Assembly: GCA_035527535.1 (NCBI GenBank)
Contig: DATLAK010000012.1
Coordinates: 1 to 57,277 of the forward strand
Direction: 5' to 3'
DNA from: Armatimonadota bacterium
GTDB taxonomy: Bacteria > Armatimonadota > Hebobacteria > GCA-020354555 > CP070648
DNA: 57,277 bases
The position numbers and the translations under genes are program-made. The notes below the pieces were generated by a model that was not told where the DNA came from, did not search any database, and saw only the letters and a program-made list of their open reading frames with translations. Each line of letters starts with the position of its first letter. The stretch's first letter is position 1. Positions 15,291 to 50,216 of the stretch are shown in pieces.

Positions 15291-16964
15291 ATGAGACCAC
15301 CGAGGGGATTGCCGGGACTGGGAGACTGGCTGAGCCTCTTGGAGCGGCCCGGCGCCGCGTTGCGGACCGCCTTCGGGCGGACCTATGGGCAAGACGCGGC
15401 GCTGCTGGAGCGGCGCCGTCACGCCTACCGCGCGCTTCTGCAGGCGTTTGCCGCGGCCTATGACTCCCGTGACGCGATCATCGTGGCGCGGGCGCCCGCG
15501 CGCCTCAACCTGATGGGGGTGCATGTCGAGCACCGCCGCGGGGAGGTCAATTACGTCACCCATTGTCGAGAGGTCTTGATCGCGGCTCAGCCCCGGCCGG
15601 ATGATCGCGTGGTTCTGCGCAGCGTCGAGCCCGCTTGTTTCCCGGACCACAGCTTTGGCATCGGCGAGGAGCTGGCGCAAGGCGCCCGCGATAACTGGAT
15701 GGCGTTCATCGAGAGCCCCGGGGTGAGCCAGGCAGTCGCCCGCATGCGCGGCCACTGGGGCAACTACATCAAATCCGCGGTGCTGCGGCTCCAGCACCGC
15801 TTCCCCGAGCGCAAGCTGTGCGGCATGAACCTCATGGTCAGCGGCGACATTCCCATCTCCGCCGGGCTCAGCTCCTCGTCGGCGCTGGTGGTCGCCGCCG
15901 CGGTGGCGGCGGTACGGCTGAACGACCTTGACGTGGCCCCCGCCGAACTGGTCGAGCTCTGCGGGCAGGGTGAGTGGTATGTGGGCACGCGGGGAGGCGC
16001 GGGCGACCACGCGGCCATGATCTGCGGGCGCAGGAACCGGATCGCCCACATGCGGTTCTTCCCCTTTGAGCTGCTGGAATGCGTCCCCCTGCCCGACGGC
16101 TGCCAGGTGGTGATCTGCAACTCCCTCAAGGCGGCGGAGAAGTCAGGCGCCGTGCTCGATGAGTACAACCAGACCATCGCCGCGTACCAGGTGGTGCTGA
16201 TGCTGATCAAGCAGGTGCTGATCGCGGAGCTGGGAGTGGACGCGGCGGCGGTCGAGCACCAGCTCAACCATCTCGGCGACATCAACCTCAACCGGCGGGA
16301 TTTCCCGGACGAGCTTGTCTATCGCGTCCTGCGCCGGATTCCCCCGGCCATCACCCGCGAGCAGCTGCGGGCGCGGCTGTCCGCACAGCGCGCAGCGCTC
16401 GAGCAGATCTTCCTCACCCACAACGCGCCGGCCGGCGGCTACCGGGCGCGGGCGGTCGCCATGTTCGGCCTGGCTGAGATCGCGCGCGGCGCGAACGCCA
16501 TGGGCTTCCTGAAACGGGGAGACCTGGCGGGCTTCGGCGAACTCATGTACATCTCGCACGCCGGCGACCGGCTGGTGACGTTCGCCCCTGACGGCAGCCG
16601 GCACCCGTGGGACAACGAGAGCACCCGCGTCACCGATGACTACCTGCAGCGACTGCTTGACGACCGCGCCGGGGGCGACCCGGAAAAGGCCTACCGGGCG
16701 AACCTGATGTTTCAGCCCGGGGGATTCCGGTGCAGCTGCGAGGAGCTGGACCAGATCGTGGACCTCGCGCAGCGGGTGCCCGGGGTCCTGGGCGCCGGGC
16801 TCACCGGGGCGGGGTTCGGCGGGTGCGTGCTGGTGCTGGCGCGGGAGCAGGCGGTGGAGGCCCTGGTCGAGGCGCTGGGCGAAGAGTATTACGAGCCGCG
16901 CGGTCTGCCATTGGCCGCCGAGACTTGCGTCAGTGTGGCGGGGGCGGGCGTCGTCAGCCTCTAG
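15291..16964 (+). CDS. Long GHMP-family (galactokinase-like) kinase with altered sugar signature
   Basis: A 557-residue GHMP kinase, against about 380 for GalK. Motif 1 is at residues 68-83 (APARLNLMGVHVEHRR). Galactokinases have GEHxDY here; this protein has GVHVEH, replacing the Asp that in GalK contacts the sugar. Motif 2, the ATP loop, is GLSSSSALVVA near residue 192, and motif 3 is GAGFGGCVLVLA near 505. An N-terminal 65-residue helical extension and an insert at about 290-400 account for the extra length. The ATG at 15291 has ggag upstream. It lies 45 bases before the giant ATP-grasp gene and probably shares its transcript, so a sugar 1-phosphate or related substrate for that pathway is likely; galactose is doubtful. 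Confidence 0.85.
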   Translation: MRPPRGLPGLGDWLSLLERPGAALRTAFGRTYGQDAALLERRRHAYRALLQAFAAAYDSRDAIIVARAPARLNLMGVHVEHRRGEVNYVTHCREVLIAAQPRPDDRVVLRSVEPACFPDHSFGIGEELAQGARDNWMAFIESPGVSQAVARMRGHWGNYIKSAVLRLQHRFPERKLCGMNLMVSGDIPISAGLSSSSALVVAAAVAAVRLNDLDVAPAELVELCGQGEWYVGTRGGAGDHAAMICGRRNRIAHMRFFPFELLECVPLPDGCQVVICNSLKAAEKSGAVLDEYNQTIAAYQVVLMLIKQVLIAELGVDAAAVEHQLNHLGDINLNRRDFPDELVYRVLRRIPPAITREQLRARLSAQRAALEQIFLTHNAPAGGYRARAVAMFGLAEIARGANAMGFLKRGDLAGFGELMYISHAGDRLVTFAPDGSRHPWDNESTRVTDDYLQRLLDDRAGGDPEKAYRANLMFQPGGFRCSCEELDQIVDLAQRVPGVLGAGLTGAGFGGCVLVLAREQAVEALVEALGEEYYEPRGLPLAAETCVSVAGAGVVSL

Positions 16965-17009
16965 TCGCAGGCGGCGGCGAGATATCTCTCGAGGAAGGAC
17001 CTGCAGTCA

Positions 17010-20000
17010 GTGAACGACAAGGCAAGGAGAAACCGCCAACACACGCCGGCCGATGACCGCCCGCTGCCCTTCCCGGTGTCCCGGGTGGCGCGGGTCATCC
17101 CGGGCAAGGAGGTCGCCGTCGCCCGGCGCGGCGAGGGCGCGCCTGTAGCTTCGGCGCGGATCGAGTTCGACGCGGACGGGCTGGCGGCGCGGCTGACGAG
17201 CCTGAGGACTCGCGGGCGACCATCCGCCAACCAGGTGGAGGCCGCCCGCCGCACGGCGGAGACGGTGGAACAGGCGCTGGCGGTGCTGGCGCGCTGCGCC
17301 GCTCGCAATGCGCGGTGGATCGGCGACCTCGGCGCGCAGGTTCGTTCGCGCTATGGCGCGGTGGAGGTGGAGTTCCTGGCCGATCACGATGTGGTGGCGG
17401 ATGCGATCGCCGGTGGGCGCCGGCCGACGCTGCGCCTGAGCATCGAGCCGGCGGCGGAGGCCGCGGACGCCGGTCGCGCCGGGCTCCCCATTCTCTACGC
17501 CCTCGGACTGCTGCACCAGTGCGGCCACCTGTGCGGATGGGACCGACGTACATGCCTGCAGCGGTGCCTTGATCTCTACCAGACGCTGCGGGCGGCGGAG
17601 GCCCGCTCGCTGGCGGAGGCGCTCTCGCATCCCCACCTGGACGCGGGCAAGATCTTCCTGCGGTTCCTGCGCGAGGCCGCCGGCAAGCCGGGTACGGAGC
17701 GGGACCGTTGGATCGCCTGGCTGCTCGGGCGGGCGTTTATCGAACTCCCCTACAGCAGCGAGGCGGTGCGGCAGGCGATCGCCCAGAGCGCGGATCTGGC
17801 CGATCTCCGCCTAGGCATCTACAACGCCATCCATGACACCTACGTCGAGTCCCTGGATAGCGCCCATGCGCAGCGGGTCGCCGATCGGTGCCTGGAGGAC
17901 GGGGTGCGCCTGGTCGGGGGGCGGTTCAGCCGCGCGTTCTACATTGACGCCATGCTCATGGCGAGCGCCAAGACCCTGGCAGCCAGGCACCTGCGCGCGG
18001 GCTTGAACGAGCTGGCGAAGGCGTGGAAGCGATCTCGCCTGCGGTTTGCGGACCCGGAGCTGAGAGAGCGCGGCCTGAATTTCCAGTCCATCGGCGGCGA
18101 GGTGCAGCGCCTCCTCAACCTGCCGGCCGCCGATCGCGTCTCGGTCGCGCAAGTGCAGGGAGCGGTGGGGAAGCTCAAGCAGGCCCTGAGGTCGTTCGAG
18201 ACCTCCCTCCTATCGCAAATGGACGCCCTGGAGAGCGACCGCGGGCAAACCTCCCCCGCGCCCGCGCTGGCCGGCGATCGCGCGGAGGCGCGCCGGCAGG
18301 TGGACGCCATCTTCGGCGCGATCGCGATCGTGGAGGCGGCGCTGGCCGGGGCCCCCAAGAGCGATCCCGCGTTCATGGTCTTTTTCCAGCGCCTGTTTCC
18401 GCTGGACGCCGTCAACATGGGGCTGCTGAATGAGCTCCTCGATCCCTTCTTCGGCGAGGACGAGGAGATCCACGCCCTGATCCGCTCCGCCGGCCCCCAC
18501 ATGTACGTCACCTCCAACCTGAGCGCGTGGCTACGCCGATGTGACGATTGGGTGGAAGCGCTGCCCGCCTACGCCAGCTACGAGATCGTCCCCACCGACG
18601 GCGGGTACGCGGTGGTCGCCGGCGTGCAGCGCTCGATCATGGAGGACATGTACCGCCGCCACGGCGAGGATTGGGCGCTCAACATTGACGCGGTCATGGC
18701 CAGCGAGCACATCTGCCTGGCGCGCGAGATCCTGATCGAGGCGACGGGCCTCGCCGCGGAGGCCGACCGGCGCTCCCGCCGCCACCACATCAGCCGAGAG
18801 GAGGCCGAGCGGCAGATCATCAGGCGCCGGGGATGGATGGCGCAGGTGGCGATCCTGGCCGCGCTGATCGAGGCGACCTACCTCGACCTGTGCCCGCAGG
18901 TGGCGCAGCGCGCGCATGGCGAGCGCACGGGAGGCATGGAGGCCCTGCGGACCGTGCTGAGCGAGGCGCCATCGCCTCGCAACCTGATCGCCCGCGCCCG
19001 GGAGCAGGCGGCCGCGACCGGAGTCGCCTTGGCCGAGGCTGGCCGGCACTTGGTCGGCGAGTGCGGGCTGGACGAGCGCGTCGAGGCCCTGCGGCCAGCC
19101 GCCGCCCAGCGCCGACGCCATCTGCCTTGCGTTCATGTGCTGACCACGCTCGGCCCCGGGGAAACCGAGCTGCACGTGCGCAACTGGCTCGAGGAGTCCA
19201 TGGCCCTCTTCAACGTGTCCCGGGGGCACCGCCTGGAGGGCGAAGTCGAGCAGCGCATCGCCGACTACCGGAGCCGGCTGGCGGCGGTGGGGCGCAGGAT
19301 CATCGGCGAGCTGGCGCTCGAAGGCGAACTGCACCGCATCATGCTGGAGGAAGGGCTGCGCCCCGAGGAGGAAGCCGACCACGAAGAAGGCATCCTCAAG
19401 CTCATCGCCTCGTATCCCGAGGTCGCCACCGAGGTGGCCACCCTCGCCCTGCTCATCGAGCACGCGGAGCAGGGCGGTCAGCGGCCGCGGGCTCCCCGCG
19501 ACGCTCAGGAACCGCAAGCGGTGCTGCAGCACCTGGCGGCCCATCCGGAGCTGGAGCAGGAAGCGGTGCGCCAGGTGATCGCGGACAACGACCTGGGGGC
19601 GGCGGTGCGGGCGCGGGTCGAGCAGCAGGGAATGGACGAGGCGCAAGCGGCGCGGGAGACAGTGGCCGCCAACGCGGACTGGGTGGCGGAGAAGGAGCGC
19701 TGGCGGCGATCACGGGCGCGGCGCGACGTGATCGAGTCGCTGGGGCTGGCGCCAAGCGTGCGGCCCTACCTGCGCAGCCGCCTGGATCGGATGCTGGCCA
19801 CCCTTCAGGCCCGCCGGGAGCTCATCGCCGAGCGCGGCCTGAGCGCGGAGCTGACCCAGCCGCGCTTCCGCTACGAAGCGACCGGCCCCTACAAGCGCTA
19901 TCATTTGCTCTATACCCCGAGCCGGGTGGACCTGGGGGCCGAAGAGGTCAGTTCGGTGCGCAATGTTCCCAAGTGGGTGGGGGGCGCGGATCGCGCCGGC

Positions 20001-23000
20001 GCCCGCGCGGGAAGGGAGCTCTACGCCCTCTACAACGTTGCCGGCCCGACGGCGGTGGAATCGCCGCGGCTCGCCGAATTCCTCAAGGTCGGGGAAAACT
20101 TCTTCTCTCGCGGCGGCGTCTTCTATCTCTCGCTGGCGGCGGGCGCCAACCTCGACGCGTTGGGCATCGGCGACTTCGAGTTCTTCCGCGACCAGTGGAA
20201 CCTGCGCGGCGACCGCATGGTGCTGCCCGCCGGCGAGACCTACGGCGGCTTCTGTGTGCCCAAGGAGTTCTCGCTGCTGTACGCGATCATCCTGGCGGCG
20301 GTCAACCCGCGCACCTCGACAGCGATGCTGGATCAGTTCGGGGTGCCCGCGGAACTCCACGCGCCCGTGATCGAGGATCTGCGGCGCCTGCTGCGGGCGC
20401 AAGTGGACTGCCGCGACGTACTCGCCTGGGAGGCGCGGGCGGAGAAATTCCTGGCGGAGAGATATGACTCGTACTTCGCGTTGCTGGGCCGGCCGGGCTA
20501 CGTCGCCCGGCTGCCTCAGCTCGCGCGGACGCTGGAGATGGCGGGGGGGCTGTCGGCGCAGCGCGAGCGGGAGCGCCAGCTCGCCTTCCAGCTCGCCGAG
20601 TGGGTGAACAAGAAAGCCCTGGGGCTGGAGGAGATCAACCGCATCGGCCCCTTCCGCAAGGTCCACCTGATCTACCGGCTGCTGCACGAGGCGCGAGAGA
20701 AGAATCCCCGCATCGCGCCCGACGACCAGATCATCGGGGTGATGAGCGCCTCCTATAAGGAGGGCGAGCGCAAGCGCGGGCGTGAGATCCCCATCACCGA
20801 TGTCCGCTTCAGCGCCGGCGCGCGCAAGCTCGAGATCTACGCGGGCACCGCCGAGCACCATCTGCTCAAGTCGCTGGACCCGGAAGGGCGCGAGCTGGTG
20901 CGCGAGATGTTCGCCGATTGGGTCGCTCCCGCCGACCTGCGCATGGTGGGCACCTGCACCGGCTCCGACCTCCTGAATCATGTGCCCGAGTCCGGCCTGG
21001 AGGCGATCAAGGATGAGGTCAACGACCGGCTGCTGGCCGCGGGGCTGGAGCAGGGCGTGATTGATGCCTGCTGCGCCGTGTACGGGGGCGACCTCGAGCG
21101 GTGGGCGGGGATCGCGGAGTTGCCGGAGGCCGAACGCCGCGCGCTGATCGGGGACATCGGTCCGCGAATCCACCTGCTGGTTCTCGATCGGCGCGGCCCC
21201 TACCGCCGCTATGAAGAGGCCGTGCAGGGGGTTGACTTTGTGGACCTGGGGATCCCGGACCCGGAGCTGCTGGACCTGGTGGACGATCTGCCCAAGCTCC
21301 TGGCGCTGATGCGCCGCGGGCGACCGCACAGCGCGCTGGCGCTGGCGGACGGCACCTCCGGCGCGCGCCGCCGCAGCTTCTCCGTCCGCTACGCCTGCAC
21401 CAAGGCCAAGGTCAAGGAGCTCTTTGCCCTCGACGACGGAGCGACGTATGGGGCGCTTGGCCTCGGGCGCGAGACGATCGCAGGATGGCGCGAGGAGATG
21501 GTGCGGGAGCGGGATCAGGCGCGCGAGCTGTGGGACGCCGTGAGCGCGGGGCGCGCGGACCTGGCGGCCTTCGTTTACGCGCGGATCGGCGCCAGGATCA
21601 TCCGCGAGGGCGGCGCCGAGGAAGCCGCCGAGGAGGAGATCGCCGCCCGCAAGTTCAAGGTTCCCGCCGCTCTCTATCGTTACCGCTCCGAGGCCCTGGG
21701 CCGCATCGCGCAGGGCCTGCCCCTGCAGAGCTTGGACTACGGAACCTGGCTCATCCTCGGCGGAGCGCACCTGGTCAACGGCCGCATGAGCGCGGAAGAG
21801 ATCCAGCGGCACCGGACTCAGTTCGAGGCGGCGATGGAGCGCATCGCCGGCTGCTCCCGCCGCGGGGGCGGCTATGGTCGGGCCCAGGTGGATGACCTGG
21901 TGGCGCTGCTGCTGCGGCCAGCGTACGTGCCCGCGCCCGAGAGCGAGTACCGCGAGATGGATACGGGCATCTCGGGATCGCTCAAGGCGACGGAGGACAA
22001 GGTCGCCCGCCTGGAAAAGCGCGAGGCCCGTCGGCGGCAGGCGCTGCGCGCCGGAGCCCTCAGCGCGCGCCGGCAGGCTTATGCGGCGACCGCGGGAGCG
22101 GTCGCCGAGGTCGTTCGCGGACGCGACTACGGCTCCGCCTGCGAACGGGCCAAGGCCGCCCTCGGCGATCCTGCGGGATCGCTTTCGCAGGAGGCCGTGG
22201 GCGAGTTCATCGCCTGGGCGCGGGGGGCATTGACCATCCTGCTCGATCGCCTCCTGCGCAACCAGAGCGACCTGCGGTCGTCCCTGGGGGAGCAGGTCAG
22301 CACGCTCCTCGACGGAGGCGAAGTGGACGCCGACCTCTACCGCACCGTGGCGGCGCGGATCGCGGCGGCGGCCGAGCTGGCGGCCGGGGACGCGGACGAG
22401 CTCGAGCGCATCGCCACGGCGCTGGAGCTGCTCGACATCGCCCTGGTCGTCGAGCGCACGCAGGCGGTGGACGATCCGGTGATGCTGACCATCGAGTTGG
22501 CGCGGTTCTTCGATATCACGCTCAACAACCATGTCTTCGATTGCCTGCCCTATCACTATCACCCGGAGCGAGGCGCCGGTTTCCAGGGGCTGAATCGGCA
22601 GGCGAAGTTCGAGCTGGCGGCGCGGCGGCACCGGTGGCTCTACACCTACATCCGGCAGCTCCTGGCCACCCGCAGCGAGCTGGCCGAGCTGGGATCGGCG
22701 TACCACGACGCCTGGCTCGGTGACGCCGATCGCGGCGTCGTCCCGCTGGGGGTGCGGGGCGAGGATGAGACCCAACGCTTCTGGTTCGGCTACGCGCGGC
22801 TGCGGGACGCGGCGGTGCTGAGGCATGAAGGGTTCCCCCCGCCGGAGATCTTCGAGCACCTCGACCCGGCCGCGATCGCGCACCAGCGACGGGCCAACGT
22901 GGCGATCATCTATCCCCATGGCAATACGACGGTGCCGGTGGCGTTGGAGCAGGGCGCCAAGCTGTCGCGCCGCGCCGGCATCAACCTCGTCCTGTGCGCC

Positions 23001-24659
23001 TTCCCCGACCTGGTGGACGATGATCGCTACCGCCGCCGGGTGCTGCACCTGCACGACGGCTTCATGTATGTCTCCCGGGACGACTACCGCGCGGCCCTGG
23101 CGGCGTCGGGCGTGGCCCCGCAGGAGGTGGAGCGGCGCTGCCGGTCGGTGGGCGAGGACGGCGTCCTGGTGCTGGCCGGTTTTCGGGAGCCGGTGGTCGC
23201 CCACGGAATCTTCTTCCACTTCACTCATCCGCTGCGCCCCTTCATCGGCGAGGCCCAGGCTCCGCTCATCCAGCCGCTGGTGTGGGAGGCCGCGACCCAT
23301 CTCAAGTGCCGCCTGCCGGAGATGCTGCGCGCGAGCGGGGTTGGCGCCCCCGGGCAGGTGAACTGGTATCGCGCGACCTGCGCGCGACAGTCGCCGGCGG
23401 CCGCGAAGGCCGCCATCGAGCGCGACCTGGCGGCCATGGCCGCCCGCTACGCCACCCTCATCGTCAAGCCGGAGAAAGAGTCCGGCGGGCGCAAGGCGAA
23501 GATCCTGCCGGTCGCTCGCGATGGGCGCCCGATCCGGGAGAACATCGCCGACCTGCGCGACCTGGTTTACGACATCTGCAAGACCGATAACGCGGTCATC
23601 CAGCAGGTGCTGCCGTCCCACGTCCGCCAGCTCTACGCGCCGTCCTTCCTGACCGACATGGTCGCGCGCTTCGCCCGCATCGGCGTACCGGTGCTGCTGG
23701 AGGGCGGACGGCCGACCCCGCTGTTCTCGTACTTCCGGCAGATCGTGGTGCTGGGCAAGGACGGCTTCGAGACTTCGCACCATATCACGGTCGTGAGCAC
23801 GCTGGGGATCGCCAACGTGGGGCAGGGCGGCTTGCTCTACGAGTACCGCGACGAAATGATTGACCCCCAGTACCGCGCGGACCTGCGCCGCGAGCTGACC
23901 GAGGCCACCCGTGCTTCGGTCGCCTCCGAGCAGGCCTACCTGCGCGAGCACTGGCGCGAGATTCTGCAGGAGTACCTGGCGGTGCACCCCGAGTTCGCCG
24001 ATGACGTCAAGCTGGAGGCGAGGGAAGACCTGACCGGGTTCCCGGACACCGGCATCGCATACGAGATGGGTGACTACATGCCGGTAATGCTGGTGGATGA
24101 CAACCACCACCTGGTGCGGCTCTACGACCGCGAGCGGGGCGTGCTGCTGCCCCTGTTCGACCGCGAGGGGCGGCCCACCGCCGTCCCGGTGTGCGACGAG
24201 GGGGGAACGCCCGTGCCCCGGCTCGATGCGAGCGGCAAGCCCCTGCCCCTGCCGATGTTTGACGAGCGGGGGCGAAGAATCCCCCGCTGCGACGAGCGCG
24301 GGCGCCCGATCAGCGCCCTGGTCGTCTTCAAGATCGAATCCAACCCGGGAGCGGGGCTGTGGCGGCCGCACGATGATCAGCTTCCGGCGGAGCGCAAGGG
24401 CGAAGGCGTCTATACCATCTTCAGGTGCCTGGGCGAACGGGCGGCGATCTACCGGGAGGAGCTGGGCAAGCTGGCCGCCTCCGCGGAAACGAAGCCGCCG
24501 CGGCGCAGGCGAACCGGTCCCGCCCCGCGCTATCTGAGCGGCCGCCCCTCCGGCGGAGATGCCCTGGAGCGGGCGATCAAGCGCGCGAGCGAGGAGCTGG
24601 GGCGAGGCCCCGCGCGTCGCGGGCCGGGCAGGTGTCCATCCTCGCCGCCAGGCGAGTGA
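17010..24659 (+). CDS. Giant 2549-residue protein with C-terminal ATP-grasp domain
   Basis: One uninterrupted frame of 2549 residues, starting GTG 17010 (gaggaagga upstream). There is no signal peptide or membrane helix. Near the N-terminus a Cys/His cluster (C171, H173, C175, C182, C186) could bind metal. Residues about 300-950 are largely helical. The middle region has three related motifs, GPYKRY (959), GPFRKV (1213) and GPYRRY (1396), and a conserved-looking GETYGGFCVPKEF with Cys1082. From about 1960 an ATP-grasp module follows: IVKPEKESGGRKAKI (Lys2153), VIQQVLP, YFRQIVVLG, ANVGQGG, and KIESNPG with metal-binding-type Glu2443/Asn2445. Between these is a D-x-x-G-x-P repeat insert. ATP-grasp enzymes join a carboxylate to an amine or thiol by an acyl phosphate. 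I do not recognise the rest. Neighbours are a GHMP kinase and another ATP-grasp enzyme. Confidence 0.85.
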   Translation: MNDKARRNRQHTPADDRPLPFPVSRVARVIPGKEVAVARRGEGAPVASARIEFDADGLAARLTSLRTRGRPSANQVEAARRTAETVEQALAVLARCAARNARWIGDLGAQVRSRYGAVEVEFLADHDVVADAIAGGRRPTLRLSIEPAAEAADAGRAGLPILYALGLLHQCGHLCGWDRRTCLQRCLDLYQTLRAAEARSLAEALSHPHLDAGKIFLRFLREAAGKPGTERDRWIAWLLGRAFIELPYSSEAVRQAIAQSADLADLRLGIYNAIHDTYVESLDSAHAQRVADRCLEDGVRLVGGRFSRAFYIDAMLMASAKTLAARHLRAGLNELAKAWKRSRLRFADPELRERGLNFQSIGGEVQRLLNLPAADRVSVAQVQGAVGKLKQALRSFETSLLSQMDALESDRGQTSPAPALAGDRAEARRQVDAIFGAIAIVEAALAGAPKSDPAFMVFFQRLFPLDAVNMGLLNELLDPFFGEDEEIHALIRSAGPHMYVTSNLSAWLRRCDDWVEALPAYASYEIVPTDGGYAVVAGVQRSIMEDMYRRHGEDWALNIDAVMASEHICLAREILIEATGLAAEADRRSRRHHISREEAERQIIRRRGWMAQVAILAALIEATYLDLCPQVAQRAHGERTGGMEALRTVLSEAPSPRNLIARAREQAAATGVALAEAGRHLVGECGLDERVEALRPAAAQRRRHLPCVHVLTTLGPGETELHVRNWLEESMALFNVSRGHRLEGEVEQRIADYRSRLAAVGRRIIGELALEGELHRIMLEEGLRPEEEADHEEGILKLIASYPEVATEVATLALLIEHAEQGGQRPRAPRDAQEPQAVLQHLAAHPELEQEAVRQVIADNDLGAAVRARVEQQGMDEAQAARETVAANADWVAEKERWRRSRARRDVIESLGLAPSVRPYLRSRLDRMLATLQARRELIAERGLSAELTQPRFRYEATGPYKRYHLLYTPSRVDLGAEEVSSVRNVPKWVGGADRAGARAGRELYALYNVAGPTAVESPRLAEFLKVGENFFSRGGVFYLSLAAGANLDALGIGDFEFFRDQWNLRGDRMVLPAGETYGGFCVPKEFSLLYAIILAAVNPRTSTAMLDQFGVPAELHAPVIEDLRRLLRAQVDCRDVLAWEARAEKFLAERYDSYFALLGRPGYVARLPQLARTLEMAGGLSAQRERERQLAFQLAEWVNKKALGLEEINRIGPFRKVHLIYRLLHEAREKNPRIAPDDQIIGVMSASYKEGERKRGREIPITDVRFSAGARKLEIYAGTAEHHLLKSLDPEGRELVREMFADWVAPADLRMVGTCTGSDLLNHVPESGLEAIKDEVNDRLLAAGLEQGVIDACCAVYGGDLERWAGIAELPEAERRALIGDIGPRIHLLVLDRRGPYRRYEEAVQGVDFVDLGIPDPELLDLVDDLPKLLALMRRGRPHSALALADGTSGARRRSFSVRYACTKAKVKELFALDDGATYGALGLGRETIAGWREEMVRERDQARELWDAVSAGRADLAAFVYARIGARIIREGGAEEAAEEEIAARKFKVPAALYRYRSEALGRIAQGLPLQSLDYGTWLILGGAHLVNGRMSAEEIQRHRTQFEAAMERIAGCSRRGGGYGRAQVDDLVALLLRPAYVPAPESEYREMDTGISGSLKATEDKVARLEKREARRRQALRAGALSARRQAYAATAGAVAEVVRGRDYGSACERAKAALGDPAGSLSQEAVGEFIAWARGALTILLDRLLRNQSDLRSSLGEQVSTLLDGGEVDADLYRTVAARIAAAAELAAGDADELERIATALELLDIALVVERTQAVDDPVMLTIELARFFDITLNNHVFDCLPYHYHPERGAGFQGLNRQAKFELAARRHRWLYTYIRQLLATRSELAELGSAYHDAWLGDADRGVVPLGVRGEDETQRFWFGYARLRDAAVLRHEGFPPPEIFEHLDPAAIAHQRRANVAIIYPHGNTTVPVALEQGAKLSRRAGINLVLCAFPDLVDDDRYRRRVLHLHDGFMYVSRDDYRAALAASGVAPQEVERRCRSVGEDGVLVLAGFREPVVAHGIFFHFTHPLRPFIGEAQAPLIQPLVWEAATHLKCRLPEMLRASGVGAPGQVNWYRATCARQSPAAAKAAIERDLAAMAARYATLIVKPEKESGGRKAKILPVARDGRPIRENIADLRDLVYDICKTDNAVIQQVLPSHVRQLYAPSFLTDMVARFARIGVPVLLEGGRPTPLFSYFRQIVVLGKDGFETSHHITVVSTLGIANVGQGGLLYEYRDEMIDPQYRADLRRELTEATRASVASEQAYLREHWREILQEYLAVHPEFADDVKLEAREDLTGFPDTGIAYEMGDYMPVMLVDDNHHLVRLYDRERGVLLPLFDREGRPTAVPVCDEGGTPVPRLDASGKPLPLPMFDERGRRIPRCDERGRPISALVVFKIESNPGAGLWRPHDDQLPAERKGEGVYTIFRCLGERAAIYREELGKLAASAETKPPRRRRTGPAPRYLSGRPSGGDALERAIKRASEELGRGPARRGPGRCPSSPPGE
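24118..24312 (+). repeat. Degenerate D-x-x-G-x-P peptide repeat coding region
   Basis: Inside the giant gene, residues about 2370-2434 contain at least five degenerate repeats of 10-14 residues: LYDRERGVLLP, LFDREGRPTAVP, CDEGGTPVPR, LDASGKPLPLP, FDERGRRIPR and CDERGRPIS. Each is an acidic turn followed by Gly and Pro and a hydrophobic strand, suggesting a small stack of beta-hairpins inserted in the ATP-grasp domain. Confidence 0.6.
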
Positions 24660-24726
24660 GGGCGCGGGCGCTTGGGCTCCGGGTTGTGCTTGAGCGGCGG
24701 TAATTAAGTCGACTGTCCCCGGAATT

Positions 24727-26277
24727 ATGAGCGGCAAAGGCTTCGGCGCGGACGAGATGAGCGTGGTGCTTGCGCACTTCCTCGAGCAGGAGCTGCGGGC
24801 CCGGCCGCGGGAGATCGGGGAGCTGATGCGGCGAGCCCCCCCGCGCGCCCACGAGCAGCTCGCCCGGCTCCTGGTTTCGCGCTCGGGGGAGCTCAGCGCT
24901 CGCATCCCCGCGGCGAGCGGGACCAGCCTGCGCCTCCTCTTCGCCGACGCGGGCTACCTGGCCCGGGTCGCCGAGATGGCGTGGCAGCGACTGCGGGCCG
25001 GCGCCGATGCCCCGGCCTTGCGCATCGCCCCCCAACCCCTGGACGCCTCGGCGGTCTCCACCCTGCTCGCCGGCCGCACCAACCTCGCGCTGATCTTCGC
25101 CGCCGAGGCGGTTTGCCTCCAGGACACGCTCGAGACTCTCCACGCTGACGAGCGCCGCTGGCGCGAACGAGAGGAGATGACGGCCGAGAGCCGCGCCCCC
25201 GGCATCAATCTCCTTGCCGTCCACGCCGAGTGGCTCATGCCCGGCGGAGCGACCCGCCGCGCCCTGGTGGTGGACCATGGCGGAATGGCCAACGAGGTCA
25301 TGTTCGATTCGCCGGTGCCCATCCACGCGGCGGAAGTCCTGCACTTGCCCACCGATGGCGAACAGGAGCTTCACCGCGAGCTCTCCCGGTATTGCGCCGA
25401 GAACCATATCCTTGAAATCAACCCCTACCCCGCGGCCGAGCGCGCGGACGACAAGTTCCGGGCGCACACGCTGTGGCGCCAACGCGGCGTAACCACGCCG
25501 CAGTCGTGGCTCTTCGCGCGATCACTATCGCCCGGGGAAGTCGCCGCATCGCTGCGGGGCGTCCTGGCGCAGATGGGGGCCCGCGGGCGCCGGCAGGCCC
25601 TCTACCTGCAGCCGAACCGCGGCACCGAGGGGCAGGGGGTCGCCCGCGTCGAGGCTGCCGCGCCCGACCTCGAGCGGCTGGGCAGTGCGCATCCCGCGGT
25701 CGCCGCCATCGGTCGCCTGGGCGCGGTAGATGATGCGCTCGTGCGCGAAGAGCGGGGCGACACTCGATTTCGCCACCCGGGGGACGGGGGGCTGCGCCGC
25801 ATCGCCTTTCGGGTCAACGTGGGGTGGGACGGGAAGCGCTTCGTCGCGGAGTCGGGATTCGCCCAGGTGGCCGCCGACGAGACGGCCGACGCGGCCTCGC
25901 GCGGGCGCGGAGGAAGCATCGTCCCGGTGGCGGACGCCATGGCCTCGCTGTGGCGGCGCGGCGCGCGGGGTTGGAGGCTCGCGGCGCCCGCGGGGAGTGC
26001 CCTTCAACCAATGAAATGCGCCGCCGTCGCCGCCGCCGAAGCGCTCAACGCCGACTTGTGCGAGACCGCATTCCTGAAGCACCTGGGCATTGACATCGTC
26101 CTCGAGTCGCGGGGCGGGCGCTTGGCGCCGGTGGTGCTTGAAGCCAATGCGCGCCCGGCGGGATTGGCCCACGCCGCGGTTCTGGAAAGCCTCCCCGCAA
26201 CCCCTGCGACATTCACCATCGGCACCGCCGTGTTCGGTTTCCTGAGCCGCATCCGAGGGCTCTGGCACCATGCCTGA
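24727..26277 (+). CDS. ATP-grasp ligase-like protein
   Basis: A 516-residue protein with an N-terminal helical region (1-120), a pre-ATP-grasp alpha/beta domain (about 160-240) and an ATP-grasp domain (about 245-490). Supporting motifs in order: NPYPAAERADDKFRAH before the fold, YLQPNRGTEGQGV near 294 (the flexible ATP loop; Gln-Pro-Asn where many have Lys-Pro), RRIAFRVNVGWDGKRF, and VVLEANARPAGL near 472 with the Glu-x-Asn metal pair. The substrate is unknown. It is 67 bases after the giant gene on the same strand with only a weak ribosome binding site. Two ATP-grasp enzymes in a row suggest successive ligations. Confidence 0.8.
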   Translation: MSGKGFGADEMSVVLAHFLEQELRARPREIGELMRRAPPRAHEQLARLLVSRSGELSARIPAASGTSLRLLFADAGYLARVAEMAWQRLRAGADAPALRIAPQPLDASAVSTLLAGRTNLALIFAAEAVCLQDTLETLHADERRWREREEMTAESRAPGINLLAVHAEWLMPGGATRRALVVDHGGMANEVMFDSPVPIHAAEVLHLPTDGEQELHRELSRYCAENHILEINPYPAAERADDKFRAHTLWRQRGVTTPQSWLFARSLSPGEVAASLRGVLAQMGARGRRQALYLQPNRGTEGQGVARVEAAAPDLERLGSAHPAVAAIGRLGAVDDALVREERGDTRFRHPGDGGLRRIAFRVNVGWDGKRFVAESGFAQVAADETADAASRGRGGSIVPVADAMASLWRRGARGWRLAAPAGSALQPMKCAAVAAAEALNADLCETAFLKHLGIDIVLESRGGRLAPVVLEANARPAGLAHAAVLESLPATPATFTIGTAVFGFLSRIRGLWHHA

Positions 26278-29177: not shown

Positions 29178-29792
29178 ATGGGAGTCGCGGTGGTTGGAGA
29201 TAAGTCCAGGACGCCGGGCGGCGATGCGCCTGAGCGTCCGGGGATGGACGGCTTCGACCAGTTGTTCGCGCGCCATCAGCGAGACGTCTTCAACCTCATC
29301 TACCGCCTGGTGGGCGACTATGAGGACGCGGCCGATCTCACGTCCGAGACCTTTGTGCAGGCGCTGCGATCGTTCGATCGCTTTCGGGGGGAGGCCCAGC
29401 CCTACACCTGGCTCTACCGCATTGCCGTCAACCGGTGCAAGAACTACTACCGTCGGCGCGGGGTGCGCCGGCGCGTGGATGGCCCGTCACTGGACGAGCA
29501 GGCGGAGTCCGCGCCGGGAGGGGCTTCGCCTCCGCGCGAGATCGAGGACTGGAGCCGCGCGCCGCAGCGCCACGTGGAGCAGCGTGAGTTGCAGCAGGAG
29601 GTCGAGCGCGCTATCGCCGCGCTCAATCCCGACGCGCGCGTGGTGGTGATCCTGCGCGACCTGCGCGGGCTGAGCTATCAGGAGATCGCCGAGGTGGTGG
29701 GGGTTTCCGCGGAAGTCGTGAAAGCACGCCTGTTCCGGGCGCGCGCGGCGCTGCGCAAGCAGCTGGCGCCCTATCTGTCGCCGGAATCGTGA
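29178..29792 (+). CDS. ECF-family RNA polymerase sigma factor
   Basis: A 204-residue group IV sigma factor. Region 2 runs about 28-95 (FARHQRDVFNLIYRLVGDYEDAADLTSETF and YTWLYRIAVNRCKNYYRRR), and region 4 about 145-200 with the HTH YQEIAEVVGVSAEVVKARLFRARAAL. The linker is Pro/Ser/Arg-rich. No anti-sigma gene follows; instead BamA starts 23 bases on, so this sigma probably controls envelope biogenesis directly, comparable in purpose to RpoE. The ATG at 29178 is used; GTG 29190 is possible. Its promoter region has an ECF-like motif with a perfect palindrome. Confidence 0.9.
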   Translation: MGVAVVGDKSRTPGGDAPERPGMDGFDQLFARHQRDVFNLIYRLVGDYEDAADLTSETFVQALRSFDRFRGEAQPYTWLYRIAVNRCKNYYRRRGVRRRVDGPSLDEQAESAPGGASPPREIEDWSRAPQRHVEQRELQQEVERAIAALNPDARVVVILRDLRGLSYQEIAEVVGVSAEVVKARLFRARAALRKQLAPYLSPES

Positions 29793-29815
29793 GCCGATTG
29801 GAGGGAGACTTGAGC

Positions 29816-31627
29816 ATGGGCAAAGCCTTGGCCGTCTGTTGCCTGGCGACAGTGATGTGCGTCGCCGCGTGGGCGCAGGAGCCTCCTGCGCCTGCCGCCG
29901 CCCCGGACGCGGCGGCGACCGCCGTGCAGCCCGGGAGCGAGGGCGAGGCCGCGCCGCCGGCGGCGGCCGAAACGCCCGCCGCCGCGGAACCCGCGGCCGA
30001 AGAGCCGGGGCCGCCGATCGTCGCCATCGAGGTGCGCGGCACCGAGCACATCGCGGCCGACACCATTACCGCCGCCCTCAGCGCTCACATCGGCGATCCC
30101 TACAGCGACACGGTCGCGGCCGCGCAAGAAAAGGCGGTGCGGCAGCTAGGATGGTTCTACGACGTTTCGGTCACCAGCGAAGAAGCCGCGCAAGGCGTGC
30201 GCCTGGTGGTGAATGTCGTCGAGAACCCGGTTTACCAGGGCATCGTCATCGAGGGCAACACCGTCTTCAGCCAGCAGGAGCTTCTGGCGGTGATGCAGAC
30301 CAAGCCGGGCGAAGTGGGCAACAACCGCGTGATCATCAGTGACATGGCGGTGATCGCCGACAAGTACCACGCCGCCGGCTACATCTTCGCGCAGATCGTG
30401 GACGTGGCCACCGACACCGCGACCGGCAACCTGGTGGTGACCCTGGTCGAGGGCAAAGTCGAGGAGGTGCGGGTCACCGGCAACCACAAGACCAAGACCT
30501 ACGTCATCACGCGTGAGATGCGCACCAAACCTGGCGACATCCTCAACAACGGGCGCCTGCGGCGCGACCTCGACCGCCTCATCAACCTTGACATCTTCCA
30601 GGACGTCTCGGCGCAGCCGTCGGTCGGCAGCGCGCCGGGGCTGGTGGTGGCGACGGTCAACGTGGTGGAGAAGAAGACCGGGCTGGCGGCGGCGGGAGTG
30701 GGCTACAGTTCGGTGCAGAAGCTCGTCGGGTTCGTGGACCTGGCGGAGTCCAACCTCGGCGGCACCGCGCAGCAGGTGACGCTACGCACCGAGTTCGGCG
30801 GGCGCGACAGCTACGAGCTCGGCTATTTCAATCCGTGGACGGCTGCGCCCGCGACGAGCCTGCGCGTAGGGCTCTACCGTAAGATCATCCTGCGCGAGGC
30901 ATTCAGCGAGAACCAGAGCTTCCTCTACGACGAGAAGCGCAGCGGCGGCAACGTCACCTGGAGCCGGCCGCTCGGCGACAGCGAAACCACGCGCATCTTC
31001 GCGACTCTGCGCGCCGATTCGGTGTCGGTGCGCCAGGCCCAGGACGCGGGATTGCCCGACATCATCGCGCTGCAGCGGGGCGAGGACGTGCGCAGCGTGG
31101 CGCTGGCCTTGCGCAACGACACGCGCAACATCGTCGCCAACCCCACCCGGGGCGGGCTCAACAGCCTCTCCGCGGAGTTCGCGGGATGGTTGGGCGGCAC
31201 CAGCTTCAACAAGTTCGGGGCCGACGTCCGCCGCTACTTCCGCGCCGGGGGCAAGCGCATCTTCGCCGCACGGGTGCTGCTCGGCCTGACCTCGGGCAAC
31301 CCGCCCTTCCTGGAGCAGTATCTGCTGGGGGGCGGCGAGACCCTGCGCGGCTACCGCAATGACCGCTTCCCCGGCACGCGTATGGCGTTGCTCAACACCG
31401 AGCTGCGCATGCCGATCCAAGAAAGCATCGCCGGCGTGCTGTTCGCGGACGTCGGCGACGCCTGGGGCGGCGCCTTCGCCCGCGACCTCGGCGACGCCGA
31501 CTTCAAGGCGCACTTCGGCTATGGCGTCGGCGTGCGCCTGATCACCCCCATCGGCCCTATCCGCATAGACTACGGCATCGGCACCGAGGGCCAGGAGACG
31601 CATTTCAGCATCGGCCATGCATTCTAG
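29816..31627 (+). CDS. bamA: Outer membrane protein assembly factor BamA
   Basis: A 603-residue Omp85 protein that folds and inserts beta-barrels in the outer membrane. It has a signal peptide (GKALAVCCLATVMCVAAWA, cleavage near 21), an Ala/Pro/Glu-rich linker to about residue 62, then three POTRA domains (IVAIEVRGTEHI; YQGIVIEGNTVF; VEEVRVTGNHKT) and a 16-strand-type barrel from about 300. The barrel contains GGGETLRGYRNDRF, the conserved L6 loop (VRGF/Y motif), and ends in an aromatic residue (SIGHAF), the usual outer-membrane signal. E. coli BamA has five POTRAs and about 810 residues. The ATG at 29816 follows ggaggga; an in-frame GTG at 29789 is less likely. Confidence 0.94.
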   Translation: MGKALAVCCLATVMCVAAWAQEPPAPAAAPDAAATAVQPGSEGEAAPPAAAETPAAAEPAAEEPGPPIVAIEVRGTEHIAADTITAALSAHIGDPYSDTVAAAQEKAVRQLGWFYDVSVTSEEAAQGVRLVVNVVENPVYQGIVIEGNTVFSQQELLAVMQTKPGEVGNNRVIISDMAVIADKYHAAGYIFAQIVDVATDTATGNLVVTLVEGKVEEVRVTGNHKTKTYVITREMRTKPGDILNNGRLRRDLDRLINLDIFQDVSAQPSVGSAPGLVVATVNVVEKKTGLAAAGVGYSSVQKLVGFVDLAESNLGGTAQQVTLRTEFGGRDSYELGYFNPWTAAPATSLRVGLYRKIILREAFSENQSFLYDEKRSGGNVTWSRPLGDSETTRIFATLRADSVSVRQAQDAGLPDIIALQRGEDVRSVALALRNDTRNIVANPTRGGLNSLSAEFAGWLGGTSFNKFGADVRRYFRAGGKRIFAARVLLGLTSGNPPFLEQYLLGGGETLRGYRNDRFPGTRMALLNTELRMPIQESIAGVLFADVGDAWGGAFARDLGDADFKAHFGYGVGVRLITPIGPIRIDYGIGTEGQETHFSIGHAF

Positions 31628-31702
31628 TCAGGGCCGGCGGGACGTGATCGGCGCTTCCCTTACCGCGGAGCGCCGAGTTCGGACTACGAAAGGAGACGTG
31701 AA

Positions 31703-32350
31703 TTGATCAAGCAAGCGGCGGCGGTCCTGATCGCCTGCGCTATGGTCGCGTCGCCGGCCGCCCCGGCGGCGCTGGCGCAGGAACGCGCGCCCCGTCTGGG
31801 CGTGGTTGACATGAGCAAGGTGTTTGACGGGTACAAGCAGTTCCAGGAATCGGAGAAGACCTACCAGGAGTTCATGCGCGCGCGCCAGGCCGAATTCGTC
31901 GAGCGCGCGAGCCTGCGCCTGCTGGGCGAGGACGAGCTCAAGGAATACCAGAACTTGAAGGCGGTGATCGCCCCCAGCGACGAGCAGAAGCAGCGCATGG
32001 AGCAACTCAAGGAGACGGCGCGGACGCGCGACATGGAGCTCAAGGGCCTGCAGGTCGTGTCCAACCCGACCGAGGAGAACAAGCGGCGCATGACCGAGCT
32101 CCAGGAGCTGGCGCGCAAGAGCGACGACGAACTCTCACAGCTCCAGAAGCGCATGGAGGAAGAAATCAGCCAGCGCAACAAGGAGCTCTCAGACAACCTC
32201 AATCACCAGATCGAGACGGCCCTGGCGGCGGTGGCGAAGGACAAGCAGATTGACGTGGTGCTGACCAAGGAGGTCGTGCTCTACGGCGGTCGCGACCTGA
32301 CTCCGGACCTGCTGACCAAGCTCAACGCGACGGCGGCTCCGAGCCAGTAG
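31703..32350 (+). CDS. OmpH/Skp-family periplasmic chaperone
   Basis: A 215-residue Skp-like chaperone that holds unfolded outer-membrane proteins. The start is TTG 31703 with aaaggag upstream. A signal peptide ends at LAQERA (about 27). Mature sequence starts LGVVDMSKVFDGYKQFQESEK, the family N-terminal strand and helix. The tentacle-like coiled coil runs from about 50 to 175, and the last segment KDKQIDVVLTKEVVLYGGRDLTPDLL is the family's C-terminal strand. It follows bamA, the standard order in diderms. Confidence 0.9.
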   Translation: MIKQAAAVLIACAMVASPAAPAALAQERAPRLGVVDMSKVFDGYKQFQESEKTYQEFMRARQAEFVERASLRLLGEDELKEYQNLKAVIAPSDEQKQRMEQLKETARTRDMELKGLQVVSNPTEENKRRMTELQELARKSDDELSQLQKRMEEEISQRNKELSDNLNHQIETALAAVAKDKQIDVVLTKEVVLYGGRDLTPDLLTKLNATAAPSQ

Positions 32351-32390
32351 AGCGCGACCGCCCCACGGGCGCGTCCAGCGGGTAGGCGGC

Positions 32391-33527
32391 GTGAGGTCAT
32401 CCTGCGGCATCGTCAGATGGTGGGGGGGAGTGGCGCTGGTCGGCGTCGTGGTCGCCGCCGGTGCCGGCTGCGCATCCCCGCCGGCGCGGCCCCCGCGCGT
32501 CGGCTACGCGCGATTGGAGGCCCTGGTCCCCCTCCATCCGGGTTACGTGTCGATCGCGGAGCTGGAGCGATGGGCGCGAAGCGCCCGCACCGCGGCGCGA
32601 GAGGCCGGGCCTGCCCTGTCAACGCCCGCAGCTCTGAGCTTCCCGCCGCCCCGGGGCGGCGAGCTCGACCGGCCGCAGGCGCAGGCAGTGATCGGGCGCC
32701 TGGAGCAACTGCACGAGCAGGAACTGGCGCGCCTCGCGCAGCAACTGGAGCAGCGCGACCAAGCACAGCTCGCGCGCCGGGCGCGGGAGGCTGCGCGCGA
32801 GGCTGATGCGCTCGATGCGCAGCGGCGCATCGAGCTGCGGCGGGAGTTCGAGGATGGACGCCGACAGGTGCTGCTCGCATCGCGGGCCCAGGGGTTCGAC
32901 CTGAGCGTGCGCGTCGCCGAGTTGCAGCGCGCGCTGGCGCAGGCCGGTCCGGGAACGGTACGCGCGGCGACCCAGGAGCAACTGCAGGCGGCCGAGACGC
33001 AGTTGAGCCAGGCATCGCGGAACCAGGCCGAGCGCATCGCCGTGCTGCAGCGGCGCTATGACGAGCAACTGGCGTCCCTGCGGCAGGCGGCGAACGCGCA
33101 GGTGGCGCGGGAGGTGGAGACGCTTCGCCAGTCGCTGGTGCGGCAGCGCGCGGAGGAGCTGGCCGCCGAGCGCGCTCGGGCCGCGGCCGGCCGGCGCCGG
33201 TTGACGGTGGAGGCGGCGCTGCCGGGTACGCAGGTCGCGGCGGTGGCGCCGGGGGCGCTGGGCGATGATCTCGGGCGCGCCGCCGACTTGCTGCACAGCG
33301 AGTCGCGGCGCTGGTCGCAGGATGAAATGCGCGATGCCGGGGAACTCGCTCGACGCCGGCAGGAACTGCTGGACTTCGTGAGGCAAGATACGCGCATGAC
33401 GGCCGAGGCGCTGGCACGCGCCCGCAACTGGCGCATCGAGTGGGCGCCCCCCGGCGCCGGCCGCCGGGCGACGAGGGATGTGACCGCGCGCGCCGAAGAG
33501 TGGCTGCGCGCGTATTGGGGCGCATGA
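32391..33527 (+). CDS. Coiled-coil lipoprotein, unknown
   Basis: A 378-residue envelope lipoprotein. GTG 32391 begins a signal sequence (VALVGVVVAAGAGC) whose Cys near residue 27 forms a lipobox. Residues 95-260 are almost entirely long Arg/Glu/Gln/Ala helix, a strong coiled coil with OmpH-like heptads, and a second helix covers 290-375. HPGYVSIAELERW before the coil is the nearest to a conserved motif. It sits between ompH and lpxD, so it probably works in periplasmic chaperoning or envelope spacing. It may be an extended Skp relative. Not recognised as a named family. Confidence 0.75.
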   Translation: MRSSCGIVRWWGGVALVGVVVAAGAGCASPPARPPRVGYARLEALVPLHPGYVSIAELERWARSARTAAREAGPALSTPAALSFPPPRGGELDRPQAQAVIGRLEQLHEQELARLAQQLEQRDQAQLARRAREAAREADALDAQRRIELRREFEDGRRQVLLASRAQGFDLSVRVAELQRALAQAGPGTVRAATQEQLQAAETQLSQASRNQAERIAVLQRRYDEQLASLRQAANAQVAREVETLRQSLVRQRAEELAAERARAAAGRRRLTVEAALPGTQVAAVAPGALGDDLGRAADLLHSESRRWSQDEMRDAGELARRRQELLDFVRQDTRMTAEALARARNWRIEWAPPGAGRRATRDVTARAEEWLRAYWGA

Positions 33528-33537
33528 GGAGATGCCC

Positions 33538-34596
33538 GTGCCCGCACTGACTCTGGAGCAGCTGGCGCAGAAGCTGGGGGGCGAGGCGGTGGGCCCCGGC
33601 GAGCTGGTGATAGCGGGCGTGTCGAGCTACGAGAGCGCGGGCGGTTCCGACCTGGCCTTCGTGGACAGCCCGCGCCTGCTGCCGCTGGCCGAGCGCAGCC
33701 GTGCGGCTGCGCTCATCGTCCCGCGCGAGATCGTCTCCGCCGCCAAGCCCATCATCCGCGCTGACAACCCGCGCCTGGCGTTCGCCCAGGCGCTGGATCT
33801 GTTCTCCCCCCGGCGGCGGCCGCTCCCAGGGGTGCACCCGACGACGGTGATGGGCGCCGACGTTGAGATGGCGGAGGGAGTCTACGTCGGTCCCTACGTC
33901 GTGCTTGGCAGCGGCGTTCGGCTGGGACGCGGGGTTGAGCTGCACGCCCTGACCTTCATCGGCGACAACGTTGAGGTAGGCGCGGACACGGTGCTCTACC
34001 CCCGGGTTAGCGTCTATCACGACGTGCGCATCGGGGCGCGCTGCATCATCCACTCCGGCTGTGTCATCGGCGGCGACGGTTTCGGCTTCGTGCAGGGCGC
34101 CTGCGGGGAGCGCGTCAAGATGCCGCAGGTGGGAACGGTGCTCATCGAGGACGAAGTCGAGATCGGGGCCAATTGCGCTATTGACCGGGCCACCACCGAT
34201 GCGACTACTATCGGCCGCGGCACCAAGATAGACAACCTGGTGCAGATCGGCCACAACGTCAATATCGGGCGCAACTGCATCATCGTCGCCCAGGTCGGCC
34301 TCTCCGGCAGCGTCCAGGTCGGGGACGGGGCGGTGCTCGCGGGCCAGGCTGGCGTGGCCGACCACGTCACCATCGGCGCCGGCGCGAAGCTGTGCGCGCA
34401 GACGGGCGCCACCGGCGACGTGCCGGCGGACACGGTGGTGTCCGGCTTTCCCGCGCGGCCGCACAAGGAGCGGCTCAAGATCGAGGCGAGCCTGCGCAAG
34501 CTGCCCGACGCGCTGGCGGAGCTGCGCGCTTTGCGCCGACGGGTGCAGGAACTGGAGGAGCGCCTGCAACGAGGCGACGCGCCCGACAGCGGCTGA
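33538..34596 (+). CDS. lpxD: UDP-3-O-acylglucosamine N-acyltransferase
   Basis: LpxD adds the second hydroxy-acyl chain, at the amine, in lipid A synthesis. The 352-residue protein starts LTLEQLAQKLGGE with the uridine-binding N-domain (ending near 95, PLPGVHPTTVMGADV). Left-handed beta-helix hexads then cover about 100-300, with the catalytic histidine in VQIGHNVNIGRN and the family motif GDGFGF. A C-terminal helix follows. The GTG at 33538 is chosen because gaggag is six bases upstream; the ATG at 33532 touches that site. It shows the organism makes lipid A-type LPS, though no other lpx gene is in the window. Confidence 0.95.
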   Translation: MPALTLEQLAQKLGGEAVGPGELVIAGVSSYESAGGSDLAFVDSPRLLPLAERSRAAALIVPREIVSAAKPIIRADNPRLAFAQALDLFSPRRRPLPGVHPTTVMGADVEMAEGVYVGPYVVLGSGVRLGRGVELHALTFIGDNVEVGADTVLYPRVSVYHDVRIGARCIIHSGCVIGGDGFGFVQGACGERVKMPQVGTVLIEDEVEIGANCAIDRATTDATTIGRGTKIDNLVQIGHNVNIGRNCIIVAQVGLSGSVQVGDGAVLAGQAGVADHVTIGAGAKLCAQTGATGDVPADTVVSGFPARPHKERLKIEASLRKLPDALAELRALRRRVQELEERLQRGDAPDSG

Positions 34597-34645
34597 TCCA
34601 CCGTCCGCTTCCTGCGCGAGCGGCCAGCGGCCCCGGCGAACAACC

Positions 34646-49047: not shown

Positions 49048-49077
49048 TTGACACAGACGGGCACGATGGGCTAGAGT
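49048..49077 (+). promoter_or_regulatory. Promoter of the tRNA genes
   Basis: TTGACA at 49048-49053, an 18-base spacer and TAGAGT at 49072-49077, 28 bases before the mature tRNA-Gly. Confidence 0.7.
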
Positions 49078-49105
49078 CTTACGTAGTCTGTAGAGGGCAC
49101 GCGGA

Positions 49106-49181
49106 GCGGAAATAGCTCAGTTGGTAGAGCATCAGCTTCCCAAGCTGAGGGTCGCGGGTTCGAATCCCGTTTTCCGCTCCA
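49106..49181 (+). tRNA. tRNA-Gly (CCC)
   Basis: A 76-base cloverleaf with encoded CCA. The acceptor GCGGAAA pairs with TTTCCGC. The anticodon stem TCAGC/GCTGA encloses loop TTCCCAA, giving anticodon CCC. The T loop TTCGAAT is canonical, followed by a T discriminator and CCA. Confidence 0.96.
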
Positions 49182-49186
49182 TAAAC

Positions 49187-49219
49187 GTCTGTCGGCCCTG
49201 GCCGGGCGATCCGACAGAC
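49187..49219. repeat. Perfect 9-bp inverted repeat between the tRNAs
   Basis: GTCTGTCGG (49187-49195) and CCGACAGAC (49211-49219) are exact complements around 15 bases. It could be a terminator stem (no T-tract) or a processing signal of the two-tRNA transcript. Confidence 0.65.
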
Positions 49220-49243
49220 CACTGGTTCGCGGGGCGGTGCCGT

Positions 49244-50195: not shown

Positions 50196-50216
50196 GCACC
50201 GGCGAACCGCCTTTCC

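Follow-up and report, generated by a model that had tools for sequence, protein, structure and literature searches.

The window analysed here, the whole contig C12 (57,277 nucleotides) of a 3.24 Mb, 192-contig genome assembly of an Armatimonadota bacterium, carries a trio of genes for a GHMP-superfamily sugar kinase, a giant protein of 2549 residues and a small ATP-grasp ligase. The trio is real and conserved, and profile comparisons identify the middle of the giant (residues about 962–1285) as a nucleotide-sugar dehydrogenase core. No other domain of the giant is as well supported as this core, which lies in a stretch of about 1900 residues that an earlier note on this DNA had wrongly described as matching no family. 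We tentatively read the trio as a sugar-nucleotide conjugation module, in which the giant would ligate the carboxylate of a nucleoside diphosphate (NDP)-uronate without an oxidation by nicotinamide adenine dinucleotide (NAD).

The three genes lie on one strand, with gaps of 45 bases between kinase and giant and 67 bases between giant and small ligase, in agreement with the positions and sizes given earlier. Their third-position GC (guanine plus cytosine) fraction is 0.86–0.89. Since full-length homologues occur in other families of the phylum, with identities of 54–57% over about 2400–2500 residues for the giant, 54–61% for the kinase and 34–43% for the small ligase, the three open reading frames (ORFs) are genes and not chance ORFs. 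An antisense ORF of 1731 codons (19710–24905, minus strand) was read as a by-product of the high GC content.

Middle region of the giant protein

A Pfam scan of the window's giant by itself returned no family, and the dehydrogenase core surfaced only with homologues and profiles. The single-sequence hints were TIGR03026 (2e-6) and PDB 3g79 (0.0039). An Omnitrophota copy of the giant matched TIGR03026 at 2e-12 and PF00984 above the cutoff, and PF00984 was found in 8 of 17 giants with E values no higher than 0.1, the lowest being 1e-8. The giant profile matched PDB 3g79, an NDP-GalNAcA dehydrogenase, at 2.4e-7. In hhalign against five dehydrogenases of related genomes, residues about 960–1285 aligned at E 1.3e-13, with a weaker match beyond; the reversed-profile control gave 0.43. 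In an AlphaFold model of residues 400–1500, which is of fair quality (predicted local distance difference test, pLDDT, 69.6) and weak within the core, the stretch upstream (residues 540–960) is largely helical. The ten best PDB fold matches of this model were all nucleotide-sugar dehydrogenases, with CalS8 at the top (probability 1.0, E 0.02), and none was significant at 0.001.

The core comprises the end of the NAD domain, the central dimerisation helix, the catalytic loop and the start of the NDP-binding domain, with an insertion of about 100 residues. Like the UDP-glucose, UDP-ManNAc and NDP-GalNAcA dehydrogenases with which it was compared (PF00984, TIGR03026; PDB 3g79, and 4xr9 for CalS8), the giant has the central helix, the GGxCxPK[DE] loop and the PxRV..G motif in the same order, together with the equivalents of Lys204, Asn208, Cys260, Asn287 and Lys320, their order kept. 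For NDP-sugar dehydrogenases, 18 invariant residues and their roles are listed in a published survey (PMC4794789). P140, E201, K204, N208, N219, G257, G258, C260, N287 and K320 are kept in every homologue of the giant; in the numbering of the window's giant, E1023, K1026, N1030, N1047, N1210 and K1250, all invariant, correspond to E201, K204, N208, N219, N287 and K320. C1082 (Cys260), G1079 and G1080 are kept in 18 of 18 giants. The giants fall into two subfamilies, type A (42–58% identity within) and type B (37–70% within), which are 28–32% identical to each other. The Asp264 position is Asp in nine giants, those of type B, and Glu in the nine of type A, including the window's.

One could regard the core as a catalytically silent scaffold for NDP-sugar binding or oligomerisation, with the giant acting mainly as an ATP-grasp peptide or protein ligase. 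The loss of the NAD half and the large helical regions flanking the core would suit such a role, but the catalytic Cys, Lys and Asn are invariant across subfamilies as distant as types A and B, which argues for retained chemistry and makes a silent core quite doubtful.

Unlike the NDP-sugar dehydrogenases, the giant has no recognisable NAD-binding Rossmann half, and its core, with long insertions, is embedded in a chain about 2500 residues long with a probable ATP-grasp domain. The NAD-binding GxGxxG (Gly7, Gly9, Gly12) and Thr83 have no conserved counterpart in the giants, and hhalign found no NAD-domain match in residues 1–960. Pro140 is kept as Pro970, and the adjacent Glu141 is replaced by Ser971 in all 17 giants that cover the site. 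Because the three glycines and Thr83 are gone and Glu141 is Ser, the NAD half is, as judged by these comparisons, absent or unrecognisable; for residues 1–400 the judgement is drawn from sequence. A TT pair at 712–713, invariant in 19 of 19 giants, aligned weakly with the Ser117–Thr118 region in hhalign (E 0.04–0.1, three overlapping segments), and the surrounding motif may be a remnant of the last part of the NAD domain.

These features bear on whether the giant is still a redox enzyme, which would oxidise C6 of an NDP-sugar to the carboxylate that its own ATP-grasp domain then ligates. In such an enzyme, NAD would have to sit in a partner protein or in some non-canonical domain of the helical N-terminal half. 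All of the sugar-side catalytic residues (Cys, Lys, Asn, Asp/Glu) are kept, as full dehydrogenase chemistry expects, and the TT motif resembles Ser117–Thr118. However, given the unconserved GxGxxG, residues 1–960 without an NAD-domain match, the helical model of residues 540–960 and the uniform Ser in place of Glu141, we consider a redox giant unlikely.

ATP-grasp signatures and the GHMP kinase

The ATP-grasp signature is defined by two Lys, an Arg, an Asp and ExN (PMC4431377). Near the C-terminus of the giant, K2099, K2153, R2243, D2355 and E2443xN2445 are invariant in 16–17 giants, and hhalign of this region against the small ATP-grasp ligase gave E 0.0087, as compared to 0.48–0.8 for the controls. 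In Foldseek searches, ATP-grasp ligases topped both libraries with weak matches (E 0.23 in the PDB, 0.016 in the viral library), and the model used is of moderate confidence (pLDDT 71, poor in the second half of the domain). The C-terminus is probably an ATP-grasp domain; the invariant signature residues back this earlier assignment, and the model and fold matches do so less firmly. Relatives of ATPgrasp_ST were sought as a reference profile, and none reached the threshold, control genomes included.

The small ligase has the motif residues K243, D456 and E472-x-N474, and most members also have R362; at the site of the second Lys, the window protein has Gln and one homologue Lys. Its best sub-threshold families are RimK, N-acetylglutaminylglutamine synthetase, D-cycloserine synthetase and Ddl, all of them amide-forming ATP-grasp families, and these matches and motifs bear out the separate 516-residue ATP-grasp enzyme of the earlier note. 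Like such amide-forming ligases (RimK, D-Ala-D-Ala ligase, N-acetylglutaminylglutamine synthetase, D-cycloserine synthetase), both trio proteins have the linker Lys, Asp, ExN and Arg. Unlike them, both fall under every curated family cutoff, and in the type A giants a long repeat-like segment is inserted after the Asp, ahead of ExN. The short repeats of this insertion (24110–24320, residues about 2367–2436) are DxxGxxxP-like, and the insertion is shorter in type B.

The kinase matched Pfam GHMP_kinases_N (6e-18), GHMP_kinases_C (1e-15) and GalKase_gal_bdg (8e-8), which confirms the galactokinase fold proposed before. Its closest solved relative is human N-acetylgalactosamine kinase (PDB 2a2c, 1.6e-30). 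Like that enzyme and galactokinase, it has the GHMP N and C domains, a P-loop (PISAGLSSSS) that fits the GHMP PxxxGLSSSS and the catalytic Asp. Unlike galactokinase, it has an altered GxH motif in the sugar pocket and scores 152 bits against the galactokinase equivalog TIGR00131, below the cutoff of 226.65. Where galactokinase has the Glu of GEHTDY, five linked-trio kinases and that of G291 have Val; the kinase of G292 and the fused sister kinases have Arg. We take this Glu to contact the C6 hydroxyl group of galactose, so that its replacement would suit a C6-altered substrate.

Sister kinases (L018, L019, L020, L021, L022, L023, L024) are common in the phylum, several of them with an N-terminal nucleotidyltransferase and about 800–900 residues long, and the kinases fused behind a nucleotidyltransferase form the sister group of the trio kinase (tree support 83/84). 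Zebrafish glucuronokinase is a bifunctional sugar-1-kinase/pyrophosphorylase (PMC3938481); it shares the nucleotidyltransferase fusion with the sister clade, yet it is a glucuronokinase-type GHMP kinase, and the trio kinase is unfused. In two Omnitrophota genomes, a second GHMP kinase gene adjoins the small ATP-grasp gene (L057:8079–9089, plus strand; L059:3637–4641, minus strand; 77% mutual identity). This second kinase is presumably plant-glucuronokinase-like.

A kinase and two ATP-grasp enzymes in one set would also agree with a scheme that needs no nucleotide-sugar chemistry, in which the GHMP product is ligated twice and becomes part of a peptide conjugate or storage polymer. That version ignores the dehydrogenase core, and we regard it as highly improbable; the storage polymer suggested in the earlier note found no support. 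The broader idea in that note, sugar phosphorylation followed by ligation, fits the dehydrogenase-core evidence.

Table 1. Positions of the trio genes and of the domains and motifs discussed in the text
Feature	Position in window	Strand	Remarks
GHMP-superfamily sugar kinase	15291..16964	+	557 residues from ATG; 593 from an upstream TTG
Kinase sugar-pocket motif ARLNLMGVHVEHRRGEVN	15498..15551	+	From alignment; Glu of galactokinase GEHTDY replaced
Giant protein, type A subfamily	17010..24659	+	GTG start, 2549 residues; homologues in Armatimonadota, Omnitrophota, Elusimicrobia and Bathyarchaeota metagenome-assembled genomes (MAGs)
Motif HVLTT..G.TE..V..WLEE, residues 705–738	19122..19223	+	Possible remnant of the end of the NAD domain, Ser117–Thr118 region
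Nucleotide-sugar dehydrogenase core, residues 962–1285	19893..20864	+	hhalign E 1.3e-13; PF00984; PDB 3g79
KVGEN, residues 1026–1030	20085..20099	+	Lys204 and Asn208; K in 19/19, N in 18/18
Catalytic loop GGFCVPKE, residues 1079–1086	20244..20267	+	Gly257, Gly258, Cys260, Asp264; from alignment, roles from PMC4794789
C-terminal ATP-grasp module (probable), residues about 1946–2485	22845..24464	+	K2099, K2153, ESGGR, R2243, D2355, E2443-x-N2445
Small ATP-grasp ligase	24727..26277	+	516 residues, LEANARPAGL close to its end; nearest sub-threshold families amide-forming

Distribution and genomic neighbourhoods

The giant was detected in 6 of 291 genomes of the window's phylum (Armatimonadota), in 1 of 341 from the phylum of an Elusimicrobia MAG, in 10 of 14 from the phylum of the Omnitrophota MAG Ch114 and in one Bathyarchaeota MAG. 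In the last it is split over two frames, on a contig that has other, archaeal-looking genes as well. A plasmid search for the giant gave no match, and no Pfam, NCBIfam or PADLOC family covers it. Three Omnitrophota genomes, G302 (L085, L086), G300 (L076) and G301 (L090), have one type A and one type B giant each.

All three genes are linked in six type A genomes, which belong to Armatimonadota, one Elusimicrobia MAG and one Bathyarchaeota MAG. The order kinase–giant–small ATP-grasp is found in the window, G249, G250 and G251, with two small HEPN/MNT genes preceding the small ATP-grasp gene in G250. The Bathyarchaeota order is giant, ATP-grasp, GNAT, kinase, and in the Elusimicrobia MAG the end of the giant, the ATP-grasp gene and the kinase are contiguous. 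G002 has the giant and the ATP-grasp gene only; in G301 and G302 the type A giant is followed by the small ATP-grasp gene, and the kinase is not nearby.

A small ATP-grasp homologue is present in all nine giant-bearing genomes examined besides the window's, one copy being truncated by a contig end. Across the phylum's 291 genomes, the small ligase accompanies the giant in 6 of 6 cases and is found in none of the 285 giant-free genomes. The small-ligase profile search of these genomes matched giant-bearing genomes only; it missed the sixth, G004, because the contig ends inside the gene. Simple counting gives p about 1e-12, uncorrected for relatedness and, given that the genomes are related, a guide only. 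As to the co-occurrence that the earlier note proposed to check, it holds for the small ligase in every genome examined and for the kinase at six type A loci, and fails for the type B loci and the type A loci of G301 and G302, which have no linked kinase. The idea of a three-gene system survives this check and that of the C-terminal ATP-grasp domain, and is partly supported.

In G296 and G297, the type B giant has a HAD gene and a PfkB gene as neighbours, the PfkB gene scoring as heptose-kinase-like, and an ABC-2 permease gene comes next. A GSU2086 family protein (NF052581, 391 bits; L088:3527–4495, minus strand) is encoded beside the PfkB and HAD genes next to type B giants. Around type A giants, nagB and an L-fuculokinase-like gene lie beside the Bathyarchaeota trio, and nagA is near the Elusimicrobia giant. 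The L-fuculokinase-like FGGY kinase is found near both the G250 and the Bathyarchaeota trios (L037:1097–2617 and L025:1–1469, both minus strand; 54% identical).

Such genes would suit a salvage or catabolic role, in which unusual external sugars, amino or uronic, would be phosphorylated, with the ATP-grasp steps making them ready to enter metabolism. However, ATP-grasp ligations are biosynthetic as a rule, the type B giants have an exporter permease gene and a heptose-kinase-like gene in their neighbourhood, and the loci were not seen to share any glycosidase or transporter. We therefore consider salvage improbable.

HEPN and MNT-type nucleotidyltransferase pairs occur in G250, in the interval between the giant and the ATP-grasp gene (L037:17891–19081), and in G293, after the kinase (L056:4793–5780). 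An anti-phage reading of these neighbours was rejected, as such genes were not seen at other trio loci and the PADLOC models gave no match at E 0.001.

Elsewhere in the window, a glycosyltransferase gene (GT4/GT1 domains) is followed by a galT-like uridylyltransferase gene (43054–45281, plus strand). The latter (PF01087, 1.5e-17; galT_1, 107.8 bits against a cutoff of 102.1) is a candidate NDP-sugar maker in the window's genome. Omp85/BamA (PF01103), OmpH-like and LpxD genes at 29789–36270 imply that the organism probably has an outer membrane. At 49071–53000, tRNA-Gly and tRNA-Cys adjoin what may be a mobile element, with ORFs that resemble, by eye, the zinc ribbon of a serine recombinase and a tyrosine integrase.

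Proposed function of the trio

In the conjugation module that we tentatively favour, the GHMP kinase would phosphorylate the anomeric carbon of a C6-altered hexose. This hexose might be a uronic acid or an amino sugar related to one, and the NDP-sugar would be made by a nucleotidyltransferase whose gene lies elsewhere. The giant would hold the NDP-sugar in its dehydrogenase-derived core, which may keep the C6 carboxylate as a thioester of Cys1082, or prepare it for one, with no oxidation of the sugar. We propose a non-oxidising core on the grounds of the missing NAD half and the substitution of Glu141. The ATP-grasp domain of the giant would then make the acyl phosphate of the carboxylate and transfer it to an amine, yielding an NDP-uronamide or an aminoacyl-uronate, and the small ATP-grasp enzyme might carry out another ligation on this product. 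The destination would most likely be a surface glycan.

As evidence for this module we count, from the sequence comparisons, the kept core residues, the absent GxGxxG, the invariant ATP-grasp residues and the co-occurrence. The amide-forming families nearest to the small ligase, the nucleotidyltransferase-fused sister kinases and the second GHMP kinase of Omnitrophota may be added, as may the heptose-kinase-like PfkB and ABC-2 exporter permease genes by the type B giants of two genomes. Several points weigh on the other side. The substrate and activity of the trio, and with them the amine donor, the role of the Cys, the chemistry, the order of steps and the destination, are ones that we infer. 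Support for the C-terminal ATP-grasp fold comes from motifs and from weak fold matches, the best of them at E 0.016 and 0.23, and an unrecognised domain of the giant could bind NAD. The kinase is unlinked to the type B giants, and some type A neighbourhoods contain sugar-salvage genes (nagA, nagB, L-fuculokinase-like) and not glycan-export genes.

It is possible, if rather unlikely, that the giant represents a new enzyme class, in which a dehydrogenase half that has lost its NAD domain carries the acyl group on its old catalytic Cys, an oxidoreductase turned acyltransferase-ligase. The ATP-grasp domain would charge the C6 carboxylate of the NDP-uronate, and the acyl group would pass via the Cys to the amine. 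In the open-access literature we found no paper on the giant, on a nucleotide-sugar dehydrogenase combined with ATP-grasp, or on uronate amidation by ATP-grasp enzymes.

The giant is spread over several deep, mostly uncultured bacterial and archaeal lineages, and this unnamed family now has a functional hypothesis. It can be viewed as a natural evolutionary experiment, in which the well-understood active site of a dehydrogenase appears intact and its cofactor-binding half gone. If the conjugation module is correct, the trio would constitute a new route to amidated or aminoacylated sugar acids for glycans, via one very large enzyme.

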